Below the pieces are notes generated by a model that was not told the origin of the DNA, searched no databases, and worked only from the letters and a program-made list of their open reading frames with translations. DNA of 34,132 nt, taken from assembly GCA_035527515.1 (NCBI GenBank), contig DATLAJ010000155.1:1-34132 (forward strand), given 5' to 3'. How positions within the stretch are numbered: the first letter of the stretch is position 1; each line of letters starts with the position of its first letter. Made by a program: the position numbers and the translations under genes. This document shows, piece after piece, positions 14,394 through 30,053 of the stretch. This DNA comes from a bacterium (lineage in GTDB: Bacteria > B130-G9).

Positions 14394-14423
14394 TTGACCT
14401 ATTCAACTCGTGCGTGCTATTGT
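14394..14423 (+). promoter_or_regulatory. Putative sigma-70-type promoter of tRNA-CUA
   Basis: TTGACC at 14394-14399 and TATTGT at 14418-14423 are 18 bases apart. The predicted transcription start is about 14430, some 18 bases before the tRNA 5' end. The -35 box is near consensus and the -10 is moderate. It could drive the tRNA, gatE and radical SAM genes together. Confidence 0.45.
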
Positions 14424-14447
14424 TATGCGGTTTTTTTGAGAATGGGC

Positions 14448-14522
14448 AGGGGCGTGGTCGAACAGGGACGATGCGAGGCTCTATACCTCGAGGTGGGGGT
14501 TCAAGTCCTCCCGCCCCAGCCA
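14448..14522 (+). tRNA. tRNA with anticodon CUA (amber), Gln-like acceptor end
   Basis: This 75-nt sequence folds as a canonical tRNA. The acceptor pairs GGGGCG (14449-14454) with CGCCCC (14512-14517), with an A-A mismatch at position 1:72. The D stem is GTCG/CGAT (14457-14460/14469-14472) with an 8-base loop AACAGGGA holding A14, G18, G19 and A21. The anticodon stem CGAGG/CCTCG encloses the loop CTCTATA, with U33 and anticodon CUA at 14481-14483. The variable loop has 4 bases. The T stem GGGGG/CCTCC has the loop TTCAAGT. G73 is followed by an encoded CCA. G73, G2-C71 and G3-C70 are glutamine identity elements in bacteria, and the acceptor end resembles bacterial tRNA-Gln. Position 37 is U instead of the usual purine. 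It lacks the short D loop and 3-base variable loop of pyrrolysine tRNA. It could be a functional amber reader or an altered, inactive copy. Confidence 0.8.
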
Positions 14523-14576
14523 CCGGACGAGTTGTAGGTTAAAAAGTTGCCGGTCGTGGGACGCCGCTGTGCAGAG

Positions 14577-16556
14577 ATGGCGAGGCCGGGATACAAGAGA
14601 TATTGGTATTTCGTGAATGTAGAATACTTAAGCGCCGAGGAATACGAAGAGCTTGGGCTCACATCTGGTATTGAGATCCATCAGCAGATCAAGACCGCGA
14701 AGAAGCTCTTCTGTCATTGCCCGGTAATAATGCACAAGGATAACGACTTCGACGCGGTCGTGGTTCGGCACATGCGTCCGACTCTTTCGGAGCTTGGCGA
14801 ATACGACGGGACGGCCTTGATGGAGTTCAAGACCAAGAAAGAGGTCGTCTATCAGCTGTATCACGACTGTGTCTGCACGTATGAGATGGACGATACGCCG
14901 CCGTTTATGATAAACCAGGACGCGGTCGATATAGCGATTGTGGTTTCTCTGCTGCTGGGCTGCACGATGATCGATGAGCTGTTCATCACTCGCAAGCAGT
15001 ATTTGGACGGAAGCATCCCGACCGGCTTCCAGCGCACGTGCATTGTGGGGATAGACGGAGTCATTCGGCACAAGGGCAAGAGAATCCGCATCCGGCAGCT
15101 GGGACTCGAGGAGGACGCTTGCCGAGAAGTCTCTGATGTGGGGCATCGCATCACCTTCAAGGCCGACCGGCTTGGCATGCCGCTGGTTGAGGTCGTTACG
15201 GAGCGCGACATGGTGACGCCCTGGGAGGTTGAGGACGTCGCGGAGCAGATCGGCACGAGCCTGAAGGCAATGGGACTTGTGCACCGGGGGCTCGGTAGCG
15301 TTCGGCAGGACGTGAATGTCAGCATCGCTGGTTCGACACGGGTCGAGATCAAGGGCGTGCCCAAGGTGTCTCTGATCGGGCCACTTGTCCACTACGAGGC
15401 GCTGAGGCAGAAGCATTTGCTCGAGCTTAAGGAGGAGCTGGCCAGCCGAGGCGTCACAAAGGAGAGCTTGAAGTTCTGGAGCGTGGACGTTGCCACAATG
15501 GTTGGCGAGCTTGGCTCCGCAATCCTCGAAGAACAACTTGACATCGGGCCGGGCAATTGCGTTGTGGTGATAGGCCTCGGCAAACTTGGCGGAATTCTCA
15601 GCCCAGAACTACAGCCGGGAAAACCTTTCGGATACGAGGTCTCCCAGCGGATCAAGGTGATTGCTTGCCTCGACGGCGAGCCCAACATAATGTGGAACGA
15701 CGGCAAGGGGCGAACAGGGGACATCAGCGACAATGCTTGGTCAAGAGTCTTTTTGGCTCTCGGCGCCTCAACAGATGACGCGGTCATCTTGGTTTGGGGG
15801 AACAGACAGGATGTAAAGACAGCTGTGTCGGAGACGCGGTTGAGGATCGAGGACGCGATTGACGGCGTTCCCAACGAGACAAGGCAGGCGTATGAAAATG
15901 GGACGACCGGATTCGAGCGAATTCTCCCCGGGCCTAACCGCATGTATCCAGATACCGACTTGCCGCCGATTGAGATTCCGGCTGAGCGGATTGAGCAGGC
16001 CAAGTCGAGAATTGAGGCAAACCCGTTTGAGGCGTTCGAGCGTTTTCGGAATCTGGGCCTTTCCGAGGAGGCTATCAAGCAGCTGATGCGCACTGGTAAA
16101 TGGAAGCTCTTTGACCGATTGGTTAGCGAGCTGGGAGTTGAGCCCTGTTTTGCGGCCTTCGTTTTGACGGAGCGTTTGAGGTGGCTTGAGCGAGCGGGTT
16201 TTGACGTGTCCGAGCTGTCGGATGACGAGATTTTCGAGATTTTCGAGGCGCACAAGATGGGCAGGTTGTCCCAAGAGGCAGTTTCTTGGGTGTTGCGCGA
16301 CATTGTCGTGTTCGACGATGCGCTCGAGGTGGCGATGGAGCGTTATGCGCTCGACTCTACCGGCGAAGAGGCTGTCAATGAGGCTGTCTGCGAGCGGCTT
16401 AAGTCTCGTCGGGACCTGCTTGACGTGTTGCCTGCCGATAAGGTCTTCAATGCGCTGATGGGGGACATCATGCGATCAACCTGTCTGAAACTTGAGCCCA
16501 GGAGTGTTGCGAAGGCCCTTCGCAAGGCCCTGGGCGAAGTTCATGAGAGTAGTTGA
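14577..16556 (+). CDS. gatE: Glu-tRNA(Gln) amidotransferase subunit E (GatE) homologue
   Basis: The protein starts near the archaeal GatE N-terminus, GLTSGIEIHQQIKTAKKLFC. It continues with GatB/E core blocks (EFKTKKEVVYQLY, GFQRTCIVGIDG, LGLEEDACREV, RLGMPLVEVVTE, LGSVRQDVNVSI, RVEIKGV). A GAD insertion follows around FGYEVSQRIKVIACLDGEPN, which marks GatE rather than GatB. The GPNRMYPDTDLPPIEI block and a C-terminal helical YqeY-like tail come last. Length matches GatE. In archaea GatE acts with the amidase GatD to convert Glu-tRNA(Gln) to Gln-tRNA(Gln). Bacteria normally use GatCAB, and no gatD is in this window. The start is uncertain: TTG at 14547, ATG at 14577 and GTG at 14613 are all in frame. 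The gene begins 25-91 bp after the tRNA-CUA. Confidence 0.9.
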   Translation: MARPGYKRYWYFVNVEYLSAEEYEELGLTSGIEIHQQIKTAKKLFCHCPVIMHKDNDFDAVVVRHMRPTLSELGEYDGTALMEFKTKKEVVYQLYHDCVCTYEMDDTPPFMINQDAVDIAIVVSLLLGCTMIDELFITRKQYLDGSIPTGFQRTCIVGIDGVIRHKGKRIRIRQLGLEEDACREVSDVGHRITFKADRLGMPLVEVVTERDMVTPWEVEDVAEQIGTSLKAMGLVHRGLGSVRQDVNVSIAGSTRVEIKGVPKVSLIGPLVHYEALRQKHLLELKEELASRGVTKESLKFWSVDVATMVGELGSAILEEQLDIGPGNCVVVIGLGKLGGILSPELQPGKPFGYEVSQRIKVIACLDGEPNIMWNDGKGRTGDISDNAWSRVFLALGASTDDAVILVWGNRQDVKTAVSETRLRIEDAIDGVPNETRQAYENGTTGFERILPGPNRMYPDTDLPPIEIPAERIEQAKSRIEANPFEAFERFRNLGLSEEAIKQLMRTGKWKLFDRLVSELGVEPCFAAFVLTERLRWLERAGFDVSELSDDEIFEIFEAHKMGRLSQEAVSWVLRDIVVFDDALEVAMERYALDSTGEEAVNEAVCERLKSRRDLLDVLPADKVFNALMGDIMRSTCLKLEPRSVAKALRKALGEVHESS

Positions 16557-17556
16557 GGCGGCGGCTCGTTCTGTTGCTCGGCTGGTCGCGAGGAAAGTCG
16601 CCAGAAACAGGCAGGTCGCTGAGGTCCTTTTCGACAGGTGCAGAACGCCATCAGACCTTGTGAGGTCGGGGCTGAACCATCTGGCTTTTCTCCTGAGGCT
16701 TCCCAAGATACCATTTCTTACGAGCGTGATGCTCGAGACCACGAACCACTGCAACCTACGATGTCGCTTCTGTCCGAGCGCCAAGATGCACCGTCCAAGG
16801 GGATTCATGGACCCCGGCCTGGCCGAGAGGGTTTTGAGAGACTGCGGGAGGCTGCAATACGTTTATCTATATGATTGGGGCGAGCCGATGCTCCATCCAG
16901 AGCTTCCTTCCATAATCCAGACAGCCTCGCGCCTCGGCCACAGGACTTTCATGGTTACGAACGGGACTTTGCTCACACCGTCGCTTTCTGAGGCGATCAT
17001 TCGAGCGGGGCTTTCTGCGATATGCTTCTCAATTGACGGGCTTTTTGAGATATACAGCTCTCTTCGTGGTTTCGACTACCGGGTTTTGGAGCAGAGGGTC
17101 ATGGAGTTTTTGGGCACGAGGGAGCGGCTCAACCCGAGGCTAAGGGTCGAGATCAACTACGTCGTATCGCGCGAGACGGAGCAGCAGGTTGAGCGCTTCA
17201 GGTCAATCTGGGCAGCTCGAGTGGACCACATAACCTTCCAGCCGATGCTGATGTATAGCAAGGTTCGTCGCTTCAGGCCTTGTAGGGAGCTTTGGAAGGG
17301 GTCGCTCGTGGTCCTTTGGAACGGCACCGTGGTTGCGTGTTGCGTGGACTACGACGGCGTTCTCAAGGTCGGTGATGCGACCGAGGAGAGCATCACGAGC
17401 ATCCTCAATTCCCGGCCGATGGTTCTGCTTCGCTCGGACCATGTCCGAGGACGCTTCTGCTCACTTTGCAGCTATTGCTCGGAGTATGAGACGGAATGCG
17501 TTGACGGGCGGTTTGACGGCAGAATCTCCGGGCAAGAGGGTGCACCTCTCTCGTAG
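16543..17556 (+). CDS. Radical SAM/SPASM-type protein
   Basis: The chosen ATG at 16543, with GGGCGAAG upstream, overlaps the end of gatE by 14 bp and gives 337 aa. The radical SAM cluster motif is TTNHCNLRCRFCPS (C70, C74, C77), followed by the LYDWGEPMLHPEL glycine/GEP motif. A C-terminal SPASM-like part reads VLWNGTVVACCVDYDG, then a GD motif, then RGRFCSLCSYC, providing Cys ligands for one or more auxiliary clusters. Such proteins modify peptides, sugars or other small molecules; the substrate is unknown. The close overlap with gatE implies co-expression. The TAG stop lies inside a REP-like palindrome, so the native C-terminus may have been changed by the repeat. Confidence 0.85.
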   Translation: MRVVEAAARSVARLVARKVARNRQVAEVLFDRCRTPSDLVRSGLNHLAFLLRLPKIPFLTSVMLETTNHCNLRCRFCPSAKMHRPRGFMDPGLAERVLRDCGRLQYVYLYDWGEPMLHPELPSIIQTASRLGHRTFMVTNGTLLTPSLSEAIIRAGLSAICFSIDGLFEIYSSLRGFDYRVLEQRVMEFLGTRERLNPRLRVEINYVVSRETEQQVERFRSIWAARVDHITFQPMLMYSKVRRFRPCRELWKGSLVVLWNGTVVACCVDYDGVLKVGDATEESITSILNSRPMVLLRSDHVRGRFCSLCSYCSEYETECVDGRFDGRISGQEGAPLS

Positions 17557-17932: not shown

Positions 17933-19420
17933 ATGAACGCAGAAACGCAAGCTATTGGTATTCAAAACATGCTTGCCTCAATCAGCACGCTTGTGGCCAA
18001 GACAGAGAACAGGATCTCGACGGGCTACCGTGTGTCTAAGGCGTCTGACGCCCCGGCCGACTACGTCATCTCCCAGATGATGAACAAGACGATCAATGGT
18101 CTTCAGACGGCGAGAGCCAACGTCGGCAACGCCAGCAACCTAGTGGCGGTTGGGGAAGGCGGCCTGACCGGCATCAAGAATTTGCTTAGTGAGATGCGCA
18201 GCACAGCGCTGACGGCCGCTGACGCTACGAAATCCGGGGCAGAGCGCTCCGCGTTGAGCCAGACCGTCGCCGAGATGATGAAGGAACTCGACGACATGGT
18301 CAAGCAGACGACCTGGGGCGGCAAGATGCTCCTCAACGGCGCTGGCTTGTTCAACTTCCAGACGGGCGCAAATCCAGGGGACGTAACGTCGATTAAGATC
18401 GACCAGAGCTTCTACGCGAGAGAGATCGGCGTTGGTCTGACTGGTTCGGCCGCTCAGGCGGACTGGACGGAAGACGCAGATGGTCGTAGGATCTACGTCT
18501 CTGACTACAGCGCGGTTGAAGATGCCGAATGGACACTCGAGTTCACGAGTGCTGGGACGTTCAACGTTACGAGCACAACGATCAATGAGCCGCCCACATC
18601 AACGGGCGCAACAGGCACGGCGTATTCTGACGCCGGTATCGAGTTCCAGCTGGAGGCGAGCAGCAACTCCACTGACTACGCGGTTGGCGACAGGATCACC
18701 TTCAGCAGCAAGGCGGCGGCCATTGACGCGATTGAGGCGTTTCGCAGCAAAGGCACGACAGGCAACGCGGCCGCAACCGCCGGAAGTCAATACACTGGTG
18801 AGATGGGCGGAACGTTCCAGATCAACGTCACAGGGTCCGGTAACGCGACAGTCATATCCAGTCAGGGCCAGCTGACGGGATCATTCACCTTCAGCGGAGC
18901 GGATGGGACGGAGCACAGCGGCACGATGTCCATAGATGCGGACGGCAAGGCCAGTCTAGTCGATGGAACGTGGGATTCGGGGATCACAATCCAGTTAAGC
19001 GACTACGACCAGATCGGAAGCACGAACGACTTCGTGGCGGGCGACAGCTTCTCGTTTGACGTTACTGCTGCATCCGTAACGGGACCTGATACGACAGGTA
19101 TCCTGGGCACCAGTGGTATCAGCCTTTCGTCAGCGGCCGCTTCCTCGACGTCAATCGCTCACATCGACAAGGCGATCTCGTTGGTGGAGACGTATGAGAC
19201 GATTCTTGGTTCGACATCCCAGAGGCTTGGTATCAGGGAGAGCTCAATCACAACGATGATTGAGAACAACACGGCGGCCATGGACCGTATCGTGAAGTCT
19301 GACCTTGTTGAAGAGCAGCTGAATCTGACCAAGTACACGGTGCAGCAGCAGGCTGCGCTGGCGATGTTCGCGCATGCGACGACGCAGATGCAGATGGGTC
19401 TGTCAATTCTCAGTATATAA
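17933..19420 (+). CDS. fliC: Flagellin 1
   Basis: The 495-aa flagellin has conserved D0/D1 ends: residues 1-140 (ENRISTGYRVSKASDAPADY, ANVGNASNLVAVGEGGLTGI, LLNGAGLFNFQTG) and about 410-495 (ISLVETYETILGSTSQRLGI, QLNLTKYTVQQQAALAMFAH). The middle is a Ser/Thr/Gly-rich beta domain exposed on the filament. The extreme N-terminus is MNAETQAIGIQ rather than the common INTN motif, a trait shared with flagellin 2. The ATG has GGAGG 7 bases upstream, and the gene ends in TAA before a hairpin. Flagellin is exported by the type III flagellar apparatus, with FliS as chaperone encoded next. Confidence 0.95.
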   Translation: MNAETQAIGIQNMLASISTLVAKTENRISTGYRVSKASDAPADYVISQMMNKTINGLQTARANVGNASNLVAVGEGGLTGIKNLLSEMRSTALTAADATKSGAERSALSQTVAEMMKELDDMVKQTTWGGKMLLNGAGLFNFQTGANPGDVTSIKIDQSFYAREIGVGLTGSAAQADWTEDADGRRIYVSDYSAVEDAEWTLEFTSAGTFNVTSTTINEPPTSTGATGTAYSDAGIEFQLEASSNSTDYAVGDRITFSSKAAAIDAIEAFRSKGTTGNAAATAGSQYTGEMGGTFQINVTGSGNATVISSQGQLTGSFTFSGADGTEHSGTMSIDADGKASLVDGTWDSGITIQLSDYDQIGSTNDFVAGDSFSFDVTAASVTGPDTTGILGTSGISLSSAAASSTSIAHIDKAISLVETYETILGSTSQRLGIRESSITTMIENNTAAMDRIVKSDLVEEQLNLTKYTVQQQAALAMFAHATTQMQMGLSILSI

Positions 19421-20974: not shown

Positions 20975-22462
20975 GTGACTGTAGAGACACAAGCAGTCGG
21001 TATTCAGCACTTGCTTTCGCTTTTGGCGAAGGACATCATGGAAACAGAGAAGAGAATCTCCAGTGGTCTGAAAGTAGCGAAGGCATCGGACAACCCCGCT
21101 GATTACGTGATCTCGGAGATGATGAGTAAGACCATATCCGGGCTCACGACGGCGAAAGTCAACGCCGGCAACGCCAGCAACCTCGTGTCGGTGGCTGAGG
21201 GCGGGCTGAAGGGGATCAAGGACCTTCTCAGCGCAATGCGCGCCACTGCGCTTACGGCGTCCGACTCAACCAAATCAGGGCCGGAGCGCTCGGCCCTGAG
21301 CAAGACGATCGTTGAGCAGATGAAAGAGATCGATGATACGGTGAGGCAGACAACGTGGGGCGGAAGACAGCTGCTCAATGGCGCCGGGCTTTTCAATTTC
21401 CAGACTGGCCCGAGCCCCGGAGACATCACCTCGATCAAGATCGACCAGAGCTTCTATGCCCGCGAGACCGGAGTCGGGGCGACCGGTGATGCGGCTGAGG
21501 TTACTTGGGAAACTGACGCTGACGGCCGAAACGCCTACATAACGGATTACAGCGAGGTGCGGACAGGGGATTGGACGCTCGAGTTCACCAGCGCGGGCAC
21601 CTACAATGTGACGAGCAACACGACGTATGAGCCGCCCGAGGCGACAGGTATTGTCGGGTCAGCTTACTCGGATGCTGGCATCGAGTTCCAGCTCGAGCCA
21701 AGCGGTAATTCGGTGAACTACGCGGTCGGGGACAGGATCACCTTCGGCACCACGGCATCGATCACTCATGAGACGGAAGCGTTCCGGAGCAAAGGCTCAA
21801 CTGGCAACGCTGCCTCAACCGCTGGAAGCACCTACGTCGGACCGGTGGATGGTAAGATACAGGTCAACCTAACCGGTTCAGGGAACGCGACGGTAATATC
21901 GGGACAGGACCAGCTGACCGCATCCTTTACGTTCACAGGTGCGGACGGCTCCCAGCAGACCGGCACGCTCTCGCTTGACTCCACCGGCAAAGCCGAGATC
22001 AAGAATGGCTCGTGGGATTCTGGGGTCACAATCCAGTTCAGCGACTACGACCAGATGGGCTACACGAATGATTTCGTCGAGGGCGATAGCTTCTCGCTCA
22101 GCGTTGAGGCGGCCACGATCACAAGTCCGGACACTTCAGGCGTGATAGGTGCAGACGGTATCAGCTTGGAAACAGCGAATGCTGCTGCGACCTCGGTTTC
22201 GCACATCGACAGAGCGATCTCACTAGTAGAGGCTTTCGAGACACTCCTGGGTTCTACGTCGCAGAGGCTAGAGATCAGGGATAGTTCACTTGCGACAATG
22301 ATCGAGAACAACACAGCCGCAAGAGACCGCATCATCAATGCGGATATCATCGAGGAGCAGCTCAACCTCACCAGACAGAGTGTCCAGCAGCAGGCGGCGC
22401 TGACGATGTTCATGCACGCCGCTCAGCAAATGCAGCTGCCGCTCGCTGTTCTTCAGCTGTAA
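20975..22462 (+). CDS. fliC: Flagellin 2
   Basis: The 495-aa flagellin is exactly the same length as flagellin 1 and closely similar along its whole length, including the middle domain. It has the same conserved ends (EKRISSGLKVAKASDNPADY; LLNGAGLFNFQTG; GSTSQRLEIRDSSLATMIEN). The start is GTG with GGAGG upstream. It has its own promoter of a different type and a strong terminator, so the two flagellins are probably made at different times or levels and may occupy different filament regions. The two N-terminal variants (MTVETQAVGIQ and MNAETQAIGIQ) show recent but not immediate duplication. Confidence 0.95.
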   Translation: MTVETQAVGIQHLLSLLAKDIMETEKRISSGLKVAKASDNPADYVISEMMSKTISGLTTAKVNAGNASNLVSVAEGGLKGIKDLLSAMRATALTASDSTKSGPERSALSKTIVEQMKEIDDTVRQTTWGGRQLLNGAGLFNFQTGPSPGDITSIKIDQSFYARETGVGATGDAAEVTWETDADGRNAYITDYSEVRTGDWTLEFTSAGTYNVTSNTTYEPPEATGIVGSAYSDAGIEFQLEPSGNSVNYAVGDRITFGTTASITHETEAFRSKGSTGNAASTAGSTYVGPVDGKIQVNLTGSGNATVISGQDQLTASFTFTGADGSQQTGTLSLDSTGKAEIKNGSWDSGVTIQFSDYDQMGYTNDFVEGDSFSLSVEAATITSPDTSGVIGADGISLETANAAATSVSHIDRAISLVEAFETLLGSTSQRLEIRDSSLATMIENNTAARDRIINADIIEEQLNLTRQSVQQQAALTMFMHAAQQMQLPLAVLQL

Positions 22463-23059: not shown

Positions 23060-24187
23060 TTAGTGCTCGATCATCTCCACGTTAGCTCGCGGAAGAACTG
23101 CTTTTTCGCCATCGTCGAGCTTCACCTCTAGAACTCTGACTTCTGACTCTGTCTCCAATTTTCTGAGCTCCGGCGGCAGGCCGATAACCTTACCAAGCCG
23201 GCCAAAATAGGGATCCCTGATCACCCTGATCTCGCTGCCAACCTCTAAACCCACCGAGGCCGCCTCACCCACATCAGGCTGCTCGAAGTCGCCCAGGTCG
23301 CGAGGTATCACGACCTCAGGCCGCAGCACGCCTGCGCGAATCTGCGTCGCACCATTGATCGAGGCACGCCTTCCCTCGTTGGACCTGAATATCCCAAACG
23401 TGCTCTCCGCCATGTTGATCTTGCCAAAACCCTCTGTGATGACCAGCGTTGCTCCCAGCCGCTCCGAGCCGGTTATCGCAACACCTATGTCGTATCCAAG
23501 GAAGTCCCGCAGGTCCTGGTCGGCCAGGCCACCAACCACTATGCCAAGCGCCCCGAGCTCAATGACGCGCTTTATCGCGTCGCTGGTTACGAGCGAGCCG
23601 CCCACAAGTATCTGACCCTTGCAGTTGTCCGGGATGGAGCTTCTGTCCATCACATCCCCAGGCGAATCGCAGACCATCCGAATAGTCCCACATGCCTCTC
23701 CGCCTATGCCGAAAATCCCCTGCACAAAGGCGCCTTGTGTCTCGACTACCACGCCCTCCTGCTCGATCACCTCGACAACAGTGCCGTCGAGGTAGGCATC
23801 TACCGAGACAGGCATCGGCGCCCCACGAACCAGAACCTGGCCCGTTACCTTAGAGATGTTCTCTATCGTTCCGTCGGCCGGAGAGTCACAAACTGATTTG
23901 AACAAGCCCCAAAACCCCTTGGACATCGCGATCGGCTCGCCCTTTTTGGTCTTTCCTCCTTGTTCGATAAGCATGAAGCGGTCTATATCCTCCGGGACGA
24001 TGCCCAAGATGTTGGCGACGTTCACCGGATAGACGTTGCCGGGAAGGTCAGTCTTGGCGACCACGTCCTCCGCTTTAACAGCCTGCCCCTTCTGGACCAG
24101 GACCTCGCCCTTCAGAGGGAGGATACGCCGTTTCCTTATGATCGTCCTCTCGACTACTTTGAGTCCCGGTGTATATGCGTGAGCCAA
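23060..24187 (-). CDS. KOW-containing protein, partner of the MutL/GlmL-like ATPase
   Basis: I do not recognise a named family for this 375-aa protein. The N-terminal LPLKGEVLVQKGQAVKAEDV resembles a biotinyl/lipoyl-like barrel hinge such as in RnfC/NqrA or HlyD. The middle has many Gly/Val strands, including LVGGSLVTSDAIKRVIELGA. A C-terminal KOW-like stretch (RVIRDPYFGRLGKVIGLPPE) suggests RNA or ribosome contact. It is 20 bp downstream of the MutL/GlmL-like gene and in the same operon, so the two probably work together. No membrane segment or catalytic motif is evident. Function is unknown. Confidence 0.75.
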   Translation of the reverse strand: MAHAYTPGLKVVERTIIRKRRILPLKGEVLVQKGQAVKAEDVVAKTDLPGNVYPVNVANILGIVPEDIDRFMLIEQGGKTKKGEPIAMSKGFWGLFKSVCDSPADGTIENISKVTGQVLVRGAPMPVSVDAYLDGTVVEVIEQEGVVVETQGAFVQGIFGIGGEACGTIRMVCDSPGDVMDRSSIPDNCKGQILVGGSLVTSDAIKRVIELGALGIVVGGLADQDLRDFLGYDIGVAITGSERLGATLVITEGFGKINMAESTFGIFRSNEGRRASINGATQIRAGVLRPEVVIPRDLGDFEQPDVGEAASVGLEVGSEIRVIRDPYFGRLGKVIGLPPELRKLETESEVRVLEVKLDDGEKAVLPRANVEMIEH

Positions 24188-24207: not shown

Positions 24208-26025
24208 TTAGAAAGAGTATTCTGGATAAACCGAGAGCGCTCTCTGCCATTCCTGAAGCTTTCGCACCCTTTCTGGCTTGTTCCCAGGCAGGACAATGGG
24301 CCTGCCCCGTGCATCGAGGATGATGCCGACAACGCCGCCGCTAACCTTGGCTGTGAGCGACTTGCCAGGCCCGGCGCCAACGTCAAATCCCTTGTGAGGA
24401 CTCACCTTCAGTTGAGCCGATTCACCGACAGCCGCGTTCAGCAGATACATCTCGCCCAGACTGAGCGAGACCTCCCTATGCTCTCCGCTCGGCAGATCAG
24501 CCGAAACCTGCATACATGGAGTCCCTGGTTTGCCTGTGCCCCTCGCTGCTATGCACGTGCCAAGATGAATTAAACAGTCCTTCTCGAAGACCTCAGTCGC
24601 CGCCCTCTCATGCAACGTGGACAAAACACCAAGCTGTGGCATCATAAAAATGCTATCGACAGTAAGTTGTGTGATCCCTTCCGGCTGGAACGCGTCAATC
24701 ATCATTAGTGCCGCCTGATGCCGACGAGGCGCATGAGACAGGATGCCTCCGCTGCCGACGAGCATGTCCAAACTCATCATATTCACTAGCGTTCCGCCCG
24801 TTCGAGATTGCGCAAAAGCGTCGGAAATCGTCCGTTCCTGCTGAACACCCTTCAGGCCGACCGCAAGCGACTTATGGTGCTCGAAAGCAAGCCGTAGCGC
24901 CTCTCTGGCGATCGCCTGCTCGATGATTAGCTCCTGAAGGCTCTGAGGTATCGTTGTCGGGCGGATCATCTTGTTCTTGATCCGATTCCTTAGGTCTCTT
25001 TCCTCCAAATCGAACGGAATCCACCGCATCACATTCTCAATGCCCGCCTCAGCCAGAACGTTTGACACGCTGTAACTCATGCCGAGGTTGGCGGAAACGG
25101 TTCGGTTGAAAACGCCCGAAAACACCGAGAAAATGTCAGTCGTGGCGCCGCCGATGTCAACGCCAACGACCTGGATATCCTCGAGCTTCGCTATCGTCTC
25201 AATTATCTTCCCCACCGCGCCCGGAGTCGGCATGATCGGAGCATGAGTCCAACCCATGAGCTTCTTGTAGCCCGGAGCCTGGGCCATTACATGTTCCATG
25301 AACAAATCGTGGATCTTGTTCCGAGCGGGGATGAGGTTCTCTCGCTCAAGCACCGGCCGAAGGTTATCGACGATCGAAAGGTCCGTCTTTTCGCCGAGGC
25401 GCTGAGTTATCTCGCCCCTTGCGTCCTTGTTGCCGGCATAGATAACAGGCAATCGATATGACATCCCGAGCCGAGGTTTGGGGTCCGCCGCCGCGATGAG
25501 CTCCGCGATCTCTACCACATGCGAGACCGTCCCGCCGTCAATCCCGCCCGAAAGCAAGATCATGTCCGGCCGAAGCTGGCGTATGCGCTCGATCTTCTCG
25601 TGAGGCCGACGTCCGTCGTTCGACGCGATGGCGTCCATGACGATCGCCCCGGCTCCAAGCGCCGCACGCTCAGCCGATTCCACCGTCATGCTCTTGACCA
25701 CCCCAGCCACCATCATCTGAAGACCCCCACCAGCGCTCGACGTCGAGATGTATATGTCAACCCCGACCTGCTCGTCTCTTTGAGGCGAGATTATCTTGTT
25801 CCCGTCAAGTATCCTCCGCCCCGCGAGCTCCTCAACCTCGGCGATGGCGTTCAAAACGCCCATCGTAACGTCCTCAAACGGCGACTCGACCGTGGTTGGC
25901 GACTCCCCACGAACGATCAGGCGATACTCCCCGTCGTGCTTCTCTATGAGTATCGCCTTCGTTGTCGTGCTACCGCAGTCGGTAGCCAAAATCGACCGCA
26001 CTTCCTCTGGAATAATCTTACCCAT
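24208..26025 (-). CDS. MutL/GlmL family ASKHA ATPase
   Basis: The 605-aa protein has an ASKHA phosphate motif ATDCGSTTTKAI near residue 14 and a second GVDIGGATTDIFS near the middle. Other family stretches are YISTSSAGGGLQMMV and ILLSGGIDGG. This matches the glutamate mutase accessory protein MutL/GlmL, which uses ATP in maintenance of the B12 enzyme. No glutamate mutase subunit genes are in the window. The neighbours are a UDG, a 125-aa protein and a KOW protein, so the role here may be different from the named one. The C-terminal 120 residues (GFDVGAGPGKSLTAKVSGGV) may be an extra domain. The stop is TAA. Confidence 0.85.
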   Translation of the reverse strand: MGKIIPEEVRSILATDCGSTTTKAILIEKHDGEYRLIVRGESPTTVESPFEDVTMGVLNAIAEVEELAGRRILDGNKIISPQRDEQVGVDIYISTSSAGGGLQMMVAGVVKSMTVESAERAALGAGAIVMDAIASNDGRRPHEKIERIRQLRPDMILLSGGIDGGTVSHVVEIAELIAAADPKPRLGMSYRLPVIYAGNKDARGEITQRLGEKTDLSIVDNLRPVLERENLIPARNKIHDLFMEHVMAQAPGYKKLMGWTHAPIMPTPGAVGKIIETIAKLEDIQVVGVDIGGATTDIFSVFSGVFNRTVSANLGMSYSVSNVLAEAGIENVMRWIPFDLEERDLRNRIKNKMIRPTTIPQSLQELIIEQAIAREALRLAFEHHKSLAVGLKGVQQERTISDAFAQSRTGGTLVNMMSLDMLVGSGGILSHAPRRHQAALMMIDAFQPEGITQLTVDSIFMMPQLGVLSTLHERAATEVFEKDCLIHLGTCIAARGTGKPGTPCMQVSADLPSGEHREVSLSLGEMYLLNAAVGESAQLKVSPHKGFDVGAGPGKSLTAKVSGGVVGIILDARGRPIVLPGNKPERVRKLQEWQRALSVYPEYSF

Positions 26026-27357: not shown

Positions 27358-27664
27358 TCAGCACTGAACCGGCACGCCATCAATGAGCATCTTGTGAGAG
27401 GCACGGTTGTTCTCGACCACCGATGGCGAGTCAAGTAGACTCACCTTCCGGAAGGCCTCCTCGCACGCCTCGTCGGGAAGCCTCAGATTCAGCGGCCAAA
27501 GCGCGTCCCTCAACCGCTCCGCAAGAATGAGCTCACCGAAGTCGTCTCGCTCAGCGTTCGGCTCACCGGGGGCAATCTCCTCGCCGTGTAGGGTCGCGTA
27601 GCGAAGTGCTCTCAACCGAGAGAGCGGCTTTCTCAACGGCCGATTCGGTGAAAGGAAGACTCAT
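27358..27664 (-). pseudogene. hsdR: Type I restriction subunit HsdR, 5' fragment, frameshifted
   Basis: The start ATG (27662-27664) overlaps the four-helix-bundle gene stop as ATGA and reads MSLPFTESAVEKAALS. The frame then shifts; the other frame continues RLRALRYATLHGEEIAPGEP, then GELILAERLRDALWPLN and SPSVVENNRASHKMLIDGVP. This is the N-terminus of HsdR. The shift lies in a short CT run at 27618-27624, and restoring two bases (CT) joins AALS to RLRALRY. The fragment ends with TGA after about 104 codons, while full HsdR has around 1000. The nuclease and helicase parts, hsdM and hsdS are all absent from the window. The gene is therefore dead unless only this peptide is used. Confidence 0.8.
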
Positions 27665-28485
27665 CCGATGTTCCTCCTGCTCTTTCGGATCCGATAAAGC
27701 CGCTCTGTGAAGCCGCCCTCCTGCTCAAAAGCACCGGCCTGAGAGGCGACCTGCCGGTCCAATAAAGCGCCAGCCACACCGATCAGGACCAATGCCGCGT
27801 TAGCTGCTATCTCGGGATAGGAGGATTCTCTGGACGATATGGACCCCATGGACTGTCCATCCTGTCCATCCTGTCCATGCAGTCCATGAACCTCTTTCAC
27901 CCACTCCGCTACCCTATCCGCCGTCGTGCAGCGCCGCGCCAGCAGCCTCTTCCGGCGGGGATCATCTCGATCCCAGAGCCTCATGTTTCGCTGCCTCAAG
28001 AAATCCTCATAATCCAACCGCAGCTCCTCCAAACTCGCTCGCGCCACGTTGGTTAGCTTCAATTCCATCTTCCTCGAAGTCCCGCTGGCGACACTACCCT
28101 CCGCGATATTCTGAACACCGGAACGCGCTGCCTGAATCATCTGGTCGTGGGTGCGGCTTTTCCTATCGATATAACGGTCACAGAATCGAACTGTAACATC
28201 ATAGACAAGCTGCGCAATCTGAAAACTCTTAAGCTTCCGATAACCTCCGTGCTTCGGAATCAGTGGCTCTCGCCCCGCGCCAACCCGTCTGTCCTGTCCA
28301 CCATCTTCATTGCGTCCATGCCTGTCCATCAAGCTGTTCTCCCCATAATCTGCTCCGAATCTCTCAGCCGTATCTCCTCCTAAAGCAGCTTCCGGAGCAA
28401 AGCCTCGTGACTCTCGCCGCTCATACTGGTCGCTCATCGCCGCTTTGTCAATGCTATGAACCATCAAGCTGCCATCCACACTCAT
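27661..28485 (-). CDS. Four-helix-bundle protein (four helix bundle suffix family)
   Basis: The 274-aa protein has a central four-helix-bundle domain from about residue 80 to 200 with YRKLKSFQIAQLVYDVTVRF, RTHDQMIQAARSGVQNIAEG and KLTNVARASLEELRLDYEDF. The family is related to the 23S rRNA intervening-sequence proteins and to Avd of diversity-generating retroelements; it also accompanies type I restriction genes. Residues 1-78 are polar and disordered-looking. Around residue 205 there is a short repeat, GQDGQDGQ, encoded by tandem copies of a TGTCCATCC-like unit. The gene overlaps the RT stop (ATGA) and the hsdR fragment start (ATGA). Its nucleic-acid-binding role is an inference. Confidence 0.8.
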   Translation of the reverse strand: MSVDGSLMVHSIDKAAMSDQYERRESRGFAPEAALGGDTAERFGADYGENSLMDRHGRNEDGGQDRRVGAGREPLIPKHGGYRKLKSFQIAQLVYDVTVRFCDRYIDRKSRTHDQMIQAARSGVQNIAEGSVASGTSRKMELKLTNVARASLEELRLDYEDFLRQRNMRLWDRDDPRRKRLLARRCTTADRVAEWVKEVHGLHGQDGQDGQSMGSISSRESSYPEIAANAALVLIGVAGALLDRQVASQAGAFEQEGGFTERLYRIRKSRRNIG

Positions 28486-30053
28486 TTCGCCTTCTCCACA
28501 AAGCCGACTGGCTCACGATCGAGTCCTCTGAGTGATGCAGTTTCCACGAAGGCCACACCCTCATCTTTGAGCACATTTAGCCTGGTCGAATTGAAGTACC
28601 CTTCTAAGTCGGTCGACTTCAGGTCCCCTTGCCGGGTCAGCTCATAGATGAGAATCCAATACTTGTCCAATTCATAGGGATGCTTACCAGCGAGGTTCTC
28701 CACGAATTTGATTACCAAGTTCTTGAACTTGTTGGTGGAGAGCATCATCGCCATTGCCATGCAATCACCTGAATTTACGATCTCTTTGGCTAGTTTCTTG
28801 CCGATCTTCTGGCGAAGAAGGAACATGAGGTATATGCTCCAACACACAGCATCCGACCGACGAAATTCCAGATGTCTGCGTAGAAGCTCCCGCAACACCC
28901 GCAACATTTCTGTCTTGACGGGCACCACGTATTTGCTCAGAGCTTCGCAGATCAGGGGAAGCACGACAGGATAGTGGAACGCGACTTGAATCAGATACTC
29001 GACAAATACTTGGATGTTCAGCTCATTCACCTTGCCCACAAGGCTGCGCGCAGCATATTTCAAAACACTTCCATCAGGACATGACTTCTGAAGAACAAGA
29101 GCGTATTCAAGGAAATCAGAAACCTTCCTCGCCGAGACTTCATCTTTGTCGTTGGGCAAGCGCATCAACAGCTCTGAGATCCAGGTGCTCTTGAACGGTA
29201 TCGGCAACTCCGCAATTGAGACCTTCTTTGCGTTGAGCTGCTGCAAATAATTGCACAACTCCTTCTCAAGGTCTCGTATGAACTGCTCTGCTCGCTCTCG
29301 CGTTTTGCAGTAGCACTTGTAGTCGTCGATGAACCTGAGAAAGCGATATTTCTTCTTCGCGAGCGCTTCATCAACCCTAAAAAGGATGATTTCATTCATA
29401 ATGCTGGATGTTGCCGGGCCTATCGGCACTCCTTGCGTTTCATTGCGCTTTAGGTAGCGCTGGCAGTGATCAAGTTGATTGAACCACACGCTCCGCGTTC
29501 GATTGCTTTTAGCTACGTCGTGACCAACCAAGGCCCAGGGAATTGCATGAGAATAGAGGGAGGGGAAGCACGAAGACACATCCGCTTCCGCCATGTACCG
29601 GGCACCGCAGGACATAAGAAGATGCTGTGCGATGTCTTGTGGGAATCTCTCCTTGTCCATGACCACGACGCGCCCAACGTCGTAACCACTGATAACCAGC
29701 ACCCGGTCGTCGTCATGACGGCCCGGTTTGATCTGGCTGTGCTGGTTGTTGCAGATGTGGCTTAATCTCTGCCAATTGTCACGAATACACTCGCACAAAC
29801 AGGCAAACGGATAGGGATGCGGGATATGCATCAGCCGTAATACGTTATTGAAACGGGTTGTTCGGAATTCGATTTGATCATATCCGTCACGTCTCCTCTG
29901 ATTCGGGCCTTTTGCTACCAGCTTGTTGGCAACATCAGCGGTGAAGCCTTTGCTGTTGATCGCCGGAGGGATGTCGTCGCGATGCGCCTTGATCTCTGGG
30001 AAAAAACCGTGGCGTAGCAGGCCCTCATACACATATTGTGCATCAATAGTCAC
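28482..30053 (-). CDS. Reverse transcriptase, Abi/UG (DRT-like) class with alpha-helical C-terminus
   Basis: The 523-aa protein has RT motif 3/A at ADVSSCFPSLYS (D158), motif 4/B at TQGVPIGPATSSIMNEI (206-222) and the catalytic RFIDDYKCY (D243, D244). The IGP plus EI form of motif 4 and FIDD instead of YADD are typical of the Abi/unknown-group RTs that include antiphage DRT systems. They do not fit group II introns, retrons or DGRs. Residues 310-523 are almost wholly helical and repeat-like, as in the alpha-Rep region of class 1 Abi/UG RTs. No maturase, nitrilase or primase domain is seen. The start is GTG overlapping a small upstream ORF (GTGA). The downstream four-helix-bundle gene overlaps by ATGA. 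An antiphage role is likely from family and context, unproven here. Confidence 0.88.
   Translation of the reverse strand: MTIDAQYVYEGLLRHGFFPEIKAHRDDIPPAINSKGFTADVANKLVAKGPNQRRRDGYDQIEFRTTRFNNVLRLMHIPHPYPFACLCECIRDNWQRLSHICNNQHSQIKPGRHDDDRVLVISGYDVGRVVVMDKERFPQDIAQHLLMSCGARYMAEADVSSCFPSLYSHAIPWALVGHDVAKSNRTRSVWFNQLDHCQRYLKRNETQGVPIGPATSSIMNEIILFRVDEALAKKKYRFLRFIDDYKCYCKTRERAEQFIRDLEKELCNYLQQLNAKKVSIAELPIPFKSTWISELLMRLPNDKDEVSARKVSDFLEYALVLQKSCPDGSVLKYAARSLVGKVNELNIQVFVEYLIQVAFHYPVVLPLICEALSKYVVPVKTEMLRVLRELLRRHLEFRRSDAVCWSIYLMFLLRQKIGKKLAKEIVNSGDCMAMAMMLSTNKFKNLVIKFVENLAGKHPYELDKYWILIYELTRQGDLKSTDLEGYFNSTRLNVLKDEGVAFVETASLRGLDREPVGFVEKAK

Follow-up and report, generated by a model that had tools for sequence, protein, structure and literature searches.

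A tRNA-Gln-like element preceding gatE in a small bacterial phylum: a putative cis-acting mimic and probably not a stop-codon reader

The mRNAs of enzymes that handle tRNA can contain imitations of the tRNA concerned. This has been described for E. coli thrS, in which the operator is a tRNA-Thr mimic in the leader of the ThrRS mRNA, and for the AspRS and HisRS mRNAs of yeast, and feedback has been proposed; the thrS operator is without an equivalent of the acceptor arm (PMC6542539, PMC9976931). A tRNA-like element that lies outside translation, within a larger RNA, is tRNA-Other of Bacillus cereus. This flanks a genomic island, carries a Trp anticodon and is iron-regulated, and in the part of that report considered here no link with an amidotransferase gene is described (PMC3399842). 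The archaeal amidotransferase GatDE recognises tRNA-Gln by the D loop and the first base pair, and the anticodon is not read (PMC8007984, PMC9499178, PMC4810234). One review restricts present-day GatDE to the archaea (PMC9499178).

Here we describe a complete cloverleaf with encoded CCA in front of a gatE gene, an arrangement for which no counterpart before an amidotransferase gene was found in the open-licence literature searched. Its likeness to thrS and to the yeast mRNAs lies in having a tRNA-like RNA in the presumed mRNA of the enzyme that handles the same tRNA. The thrS operator mimics mainly the anticodon arm, whereas the gatE element has the full cloverleaf with CCA and a drifting anticodon loop; furthermore, the enzyme is an amidotransferase and the putative operator lies 90-132 nt from the start codon.

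The element and its surroundings

The window, by which we mean the whole 34,132-nt stretch analysed, is contig C155 of a 3.47-Mb genome in 183 contigs. Four genomes of a small bacterial phylum (relatives of Candidatus Coatesbacteria) were compared: that of the window (G000), one of the same genus (G001) and two from other genera of the family (G002 and G003). The features of the locus are as follows.

14394-14423 (+): predicted sigma-70-type promoter, TTGACC-18-TATTGT, 24 nt upstream of the element (consensus scan; one found, 0.3 expected by chance)
14448-14522 (+): tRNA-Gln-like element, a cloverleaf with CUA triplet, U37, A1-A72 and encoded CCA (ARAGORN; Rfam RF00005), with homologues before gatE in G001, G002 and G003
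14479-14485 (+): anticodon loop CTCTATA, with the triplet CTA at 14481-14483; six of its seven positions vary among the four genomes
14523-14612 (+): spacer between element and gatE, conserved neither in sequence (identity equal to that of shuffled sequence) nor in length (90, 123, 132 and 90 nt)
14613-16556 (+): gatE, archaeal-type Glu-tRNA(Gln) amidotransferase subunit E, GTG start (NF003107, 550.7 bits, cut-off 456; PDB 1zq1, 2d6f; GatB_N, GatB_Yqey)
16543-17556 (+): radical SAM/SPASM protein gene, its first 14 nt shared with the end of gatE (PF04055, PF13186)

The single tRNA that ARAGORN finds in the window is at 14448-14522 on the forward strand; its anticodon, CTA, gives it the triplet-based label tRNA-Pyl. 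Positions 14448-14519 match Rfam RF00005 with 45.9 bits (E 7e-7; gathering score 29), the weakest above-cut-off match to this family in the genome. Arm by arm, the letters are AGGGGCG TG GTCG AACAGGGA CGAT G CGAGG CTCTATA CCTCG AGGT GGGGG TTCAAGT CCTCC CGCCCCA G CCA. An earlier sequence-only reading of this DNA had described a well-formed cloverleaf, and both programs bear this out; the conserved bases that it listed are all present (U8, A14, G18G19, A21, U33, the TTCAA T loop, G73 and the encoded CCA). Its remarks on the odd positions also hold, in that the window copy has an A-A mismatch at 1:72 and U37 beside CUA at 34-36, and position 37 is a pyrimidine in all four genomes. The nearest tRNA of the same genome, ranked by plain global alignment, is tRNA-Gln(UUG) in each of the four (67-73% identity), in agreement with the Gln-like acceptor end that had been noted, and the 3′ half is identical to tRNA-Gln at 22-23 of 25 positions. 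The element departs from tRNA-Gln(UUG) in the anticodon loop, which is normal in the real tRNA-Gln; ordinary tRNA-Gln genes, UUG and CUG, are both present in every genome.

The element lies 90-132 nt upstream of gatE in all four genomes, so that the adjacency named earlier extends to the relatives. Because this placement recurs throughout, the element is not a chance match. Almost the whole gatE product can be matched to the solved GatE chains (1zq1 and 2d6f), and it has catalytic and YqeY-type domains. The 14-nt overlap with the radical SAM gene is found in three genomes (G000, G002 and G003), and the start at 16543 was picked from this shared overlap and the N-terminus; no NCBIfam model reaches its cut-off for this protein. 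The genes upstream of the element differ between genomes. TATGGT hexamers with weaker partners occur 29-31 nt upstream of the element in G002 and G003. No terminator-like site was found in the spacer of the window, and attenuation by an intrinsic terminator there was rejected on this ground; neither folding nor scanning revealed a shared structure in the other leaders. A short TTTxTGAGA-like stretch is located 8-20 nt upstream of the element in all four genomes (14431-14447 in the window).

Among the four copies, the columns of the acceptor stem (2-7/66-71) and CCA are invariant (0 of 12 and 0 of 3 variable), followed by the T loop (1 of 7), T stem (3 of 10), D stem and D loop (3 of 8 each), anticodon stem (4 of 10) and anticodon loop (6 of 7). 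Variation affects 4 of 210 anticodon-loop columns in the phylum's real tRNAs, although grouping by anticodon and the U33 requirement depress this figure. The constraint is thus reversed: the end handled by tRNA-modifying enzymes is kept and the decoding end is not. Cloverleaf pairing holds in 92.9% of cells, compared with 46-57% when slid; with four sequences only, covariation counts do not rise above those of shuffles. A DNA search for further copies returned those before gatE and two weak matches, of which one lies inside a tRNA-Pro and the other does not fold as a tRNA. No similar tRNA was found before gatD or a GluRS-like gene, and of 69 matches to a short pattern in viral contigs none had a matching 3′ half.

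Decoding, decay or a separate RNA

The sequence-only reading had proposed a natural amber-reading tRNA and had taken absence of CUA from close relatives as the result that would speak for decay. The triplets over the four genomes are CUA, UUA, CUG and UUA, so CUA is confined to the window copy and a stop anticodon is not conserved throughout the relatives; on its own check, the amber reading fares badly. In the CUG copy, that of G002, U33 is replaced by C33 and position 73 is U. Position 37 reads U, U, U and C, so that the loop with U33 and a purine at 37 expected of a decoding tRNA is found in none of the copies; among the 142 other tRNAs scored in the same genomes none has a pyrimidine at 37 and none lacks U33. 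A tRNA-Pyl has a small D loop without G18G19 and a short variable loop. The window copy shares the CUA triplet with tRNA-Pyl and amber suppressor tRNAs and differs from them in its normal D loop and variable loop. Pyrrolysine was ruled out by the G18G19 pair, the 4-nt variable loop (the dimensions on which tRNA-Pyl had already been set aside) and the lack of any PylRS above cut-off in the four genomes. UAG also behaves as an ordinary stop: in a sample of 434 kb with 326 long ORFs, 98 (30%) end in TAG, and coding-like in-frame extensions follow 8 of these 98, 12 of 165 TGA and 4 of 61 TAA codons, giving no TAG excess. In none of the eight TAG candidates does a Pfam domain run across the TAG; three of these have no Pfam match at all. 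RF1 is above cut-off in three genomes; in the fourth it is either cut by the end of a contig or lacking. Wholesale reassignment of UAG was ruled out by RF1, the normal TAG usage in the 434-kb sample and the lack of a spanning Pfam domain in its eight candidates. There is something to be said for an amber or ochre suppressor that inserts glutamine via GluRS and GatDE, perhaps for rare use of UAG in a single gene elsewhere in the genome: three of the four copies have a stop anticodon, gatE adjoins, and the survey that gave no sign of suppression covers 434 kb rather than the whole genome. The CUG and C33 of G002, the pyrimidine at 37 in all copies, the ordinary behaviour of TAG and the presence of RF1 make this very improbable, and the element is probably no stop-codon reader.

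Decay was the fallback of the earlier reading, and the element does change faster than its neighbours among the tRNAs. Between genera it differs at 14-18 of 75 positions, compared with medians of 2-4 for other tRNAs (the few larger values in these counts include mismatched paralogues) and 0-4 for real tRNA-Gln genes. A relic of a tRNA-Gln gene with no present function would also account for the lowest above-cut-off tRNA score in the genome and for mismatches at 1:72 in three copies, 13:22 in two and 29:41 in one. However, the element is still 76-81% identical between genera over which the four-fold degenerate sites of gatE are near saturation (34-38% identical, 28-30% being expected at random) and the spacer is random, for which reason decay is unlikely; these rates indicate an element under purifying selection, not one drifting freely. 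The acceptor stem and CCA are invariant, the element is kept in every genome, and all five differences between G000 and G001 (T25C, C32T, C34T, C40T and G51A, tRNA numbering) preserve the fold. We consider a relic improbable. Somewhat better placed, while still unlikely, is a pseudo-tRNA acting in trans, which tRNA-processing enzymes would release from the transcript to work independently, as a tRNA-like RNA with no part in translation. Such an RNA might titrate GatDE, regulate other genes or donate an amino acid in a non-ribosomal reaction, perhaps with the radical SAM neighbour, which is conserved. The complete cloverleaf is compatible with this, as is the CCA encoded in four of four copies (64 of 142 among the other tRNAs scored), and tRNA-Other of B. 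cereus provides a precedent (PMC3399842). The fixed place before gatE while the upstream genes change fits a role in cis at least equally well.

A putative cis role at gatE

The reading that we favour, with a probability of about 0.5, is that the element is a non-decoding mimic derived from tRNA-Gln that heads the gatE-radical SAM operon, most likely as a putative binding site in cis through which GatE (GatDE) would tune gatE expression. From the promoter predicted just upstream, the element would come first in a transcript that continues through gatE into the radical SAM/SPASM gene. Bacterial GatE may bind it, and binding could alter gatE output at the level of translation, processing or mRNA stability, so that gatE would be expressed according to how much of the enzyme, or of tRNA-Gln, is free. 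We prefer a mimic bound by GatE because its conserved parts are, by analogy with archaeal GatDE, ones that such an enzyme would touch, and because of the predicted promoter and operon layout. G18G19 and the T loop are kept along with the invariant acceptor stem and CCA, the anticodon loop drifts, tRNA-Gln(UUG) is the nearest tRNA, and the place before gatE is fixed in four of four genomes. A tRNA-like fold upstream of the gene for the cognate enzyme, the arrangement known from thrS, is conserved here in all four genomes.

Several observations stand against this cis-acting mimic. The spacer is long and unconserved, and offers no evident means by which a protein on the element could obstruct ribosome binding. 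The archaeal GatDE enzyme uses A1:U72 (PMC8007984, PMC9499178, PMC4810234), and three of the genomes have a mismatch at 1:72, unlike the acceptor end of an ordinary tRNA-Gln. The comparison comprises four genomes with weak covariation, and the gatE of a more distant bacterium (L032) has no tRNA upstream. We put forward as a tentative proposal that gatE has for its operator an entire tRNA-Gln cloverleaf, CCA included, which no longer decodes and is read via acceptor stem and elbow, the half of the tRNA opposite to that imitated in thrS, in a lineage with both GatDE and GatA/GatB.

If the element does control gatE, it would be a case in which a full copy of a tRNA, recognised by its elbow and acceptor end, governs the making of glutamine-tRNA; tRNA mimicry of this form did not turn up in the open-licence literature searched. 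A practical consequence concerns "suppressor" or "Pyl" tRNAs called in metagenomes from a stop anticodon, which can be non-decoding look-alikes; inspection of positions 33 and 37 and comparison with relatives offer a quick check on such calls.

GatDE in a bacterial lineage

The presence of GatDE in a bacterial phylum is unexpected. GatE is found in all four genomes, and its partner GatD is above the curated cut-off in G000, G002 and G003, G001 being 83% complete; the window gatE itself scores above its curated cut-off. GatA is present in all four and GatB is above cut-off in the two most complete, which also have AsnRS above cut-off (partial in the other two). No GlnRS reaches the cut-off in any of the four. 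The likeness to the archaeal GatDE system thus consists of GatE and GatD above curated cut-offs with no GlnRS above cut-off; the differences are the bacterial setting, the accompanying GatA/GatB and AsnRS, and the tRNA-like element before gatE. Contamination by an archaeal contig is unlikely for the window, because gatE shares its contig with genes of bacterial type, among them those for flagellin and MoaA, and because all four genomes have the same arrangement. A second bacterial MAG (Glo_17) likewise has GatE and GatD (L032 and L194), neither gene being preceded by a tRNA element. That bacteria can have GatDE alongside GatA/GatB is relevant to the evolution of both glutamine pathways.

Elsewhere in the window there are two similar flagellin-like genes of 495 aa each (17933-19420 and 20975-22462, both +), each with a smaller, related ORF after it, flagellar chaperone-like by eye. 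On the opposite strand are a gene whose 375-aa product matches nothing in NCBIfam or Pfam (23060-24187, -) and, beside it, one for a GlmL-family-like protein below the curated cut-offs (24208-26025, -). A four-helix-bundle protein (27661-28485, -) is encoded beside a Drt4 antiviral reverse transcriptase that is above cut-off (28482-30053, -).
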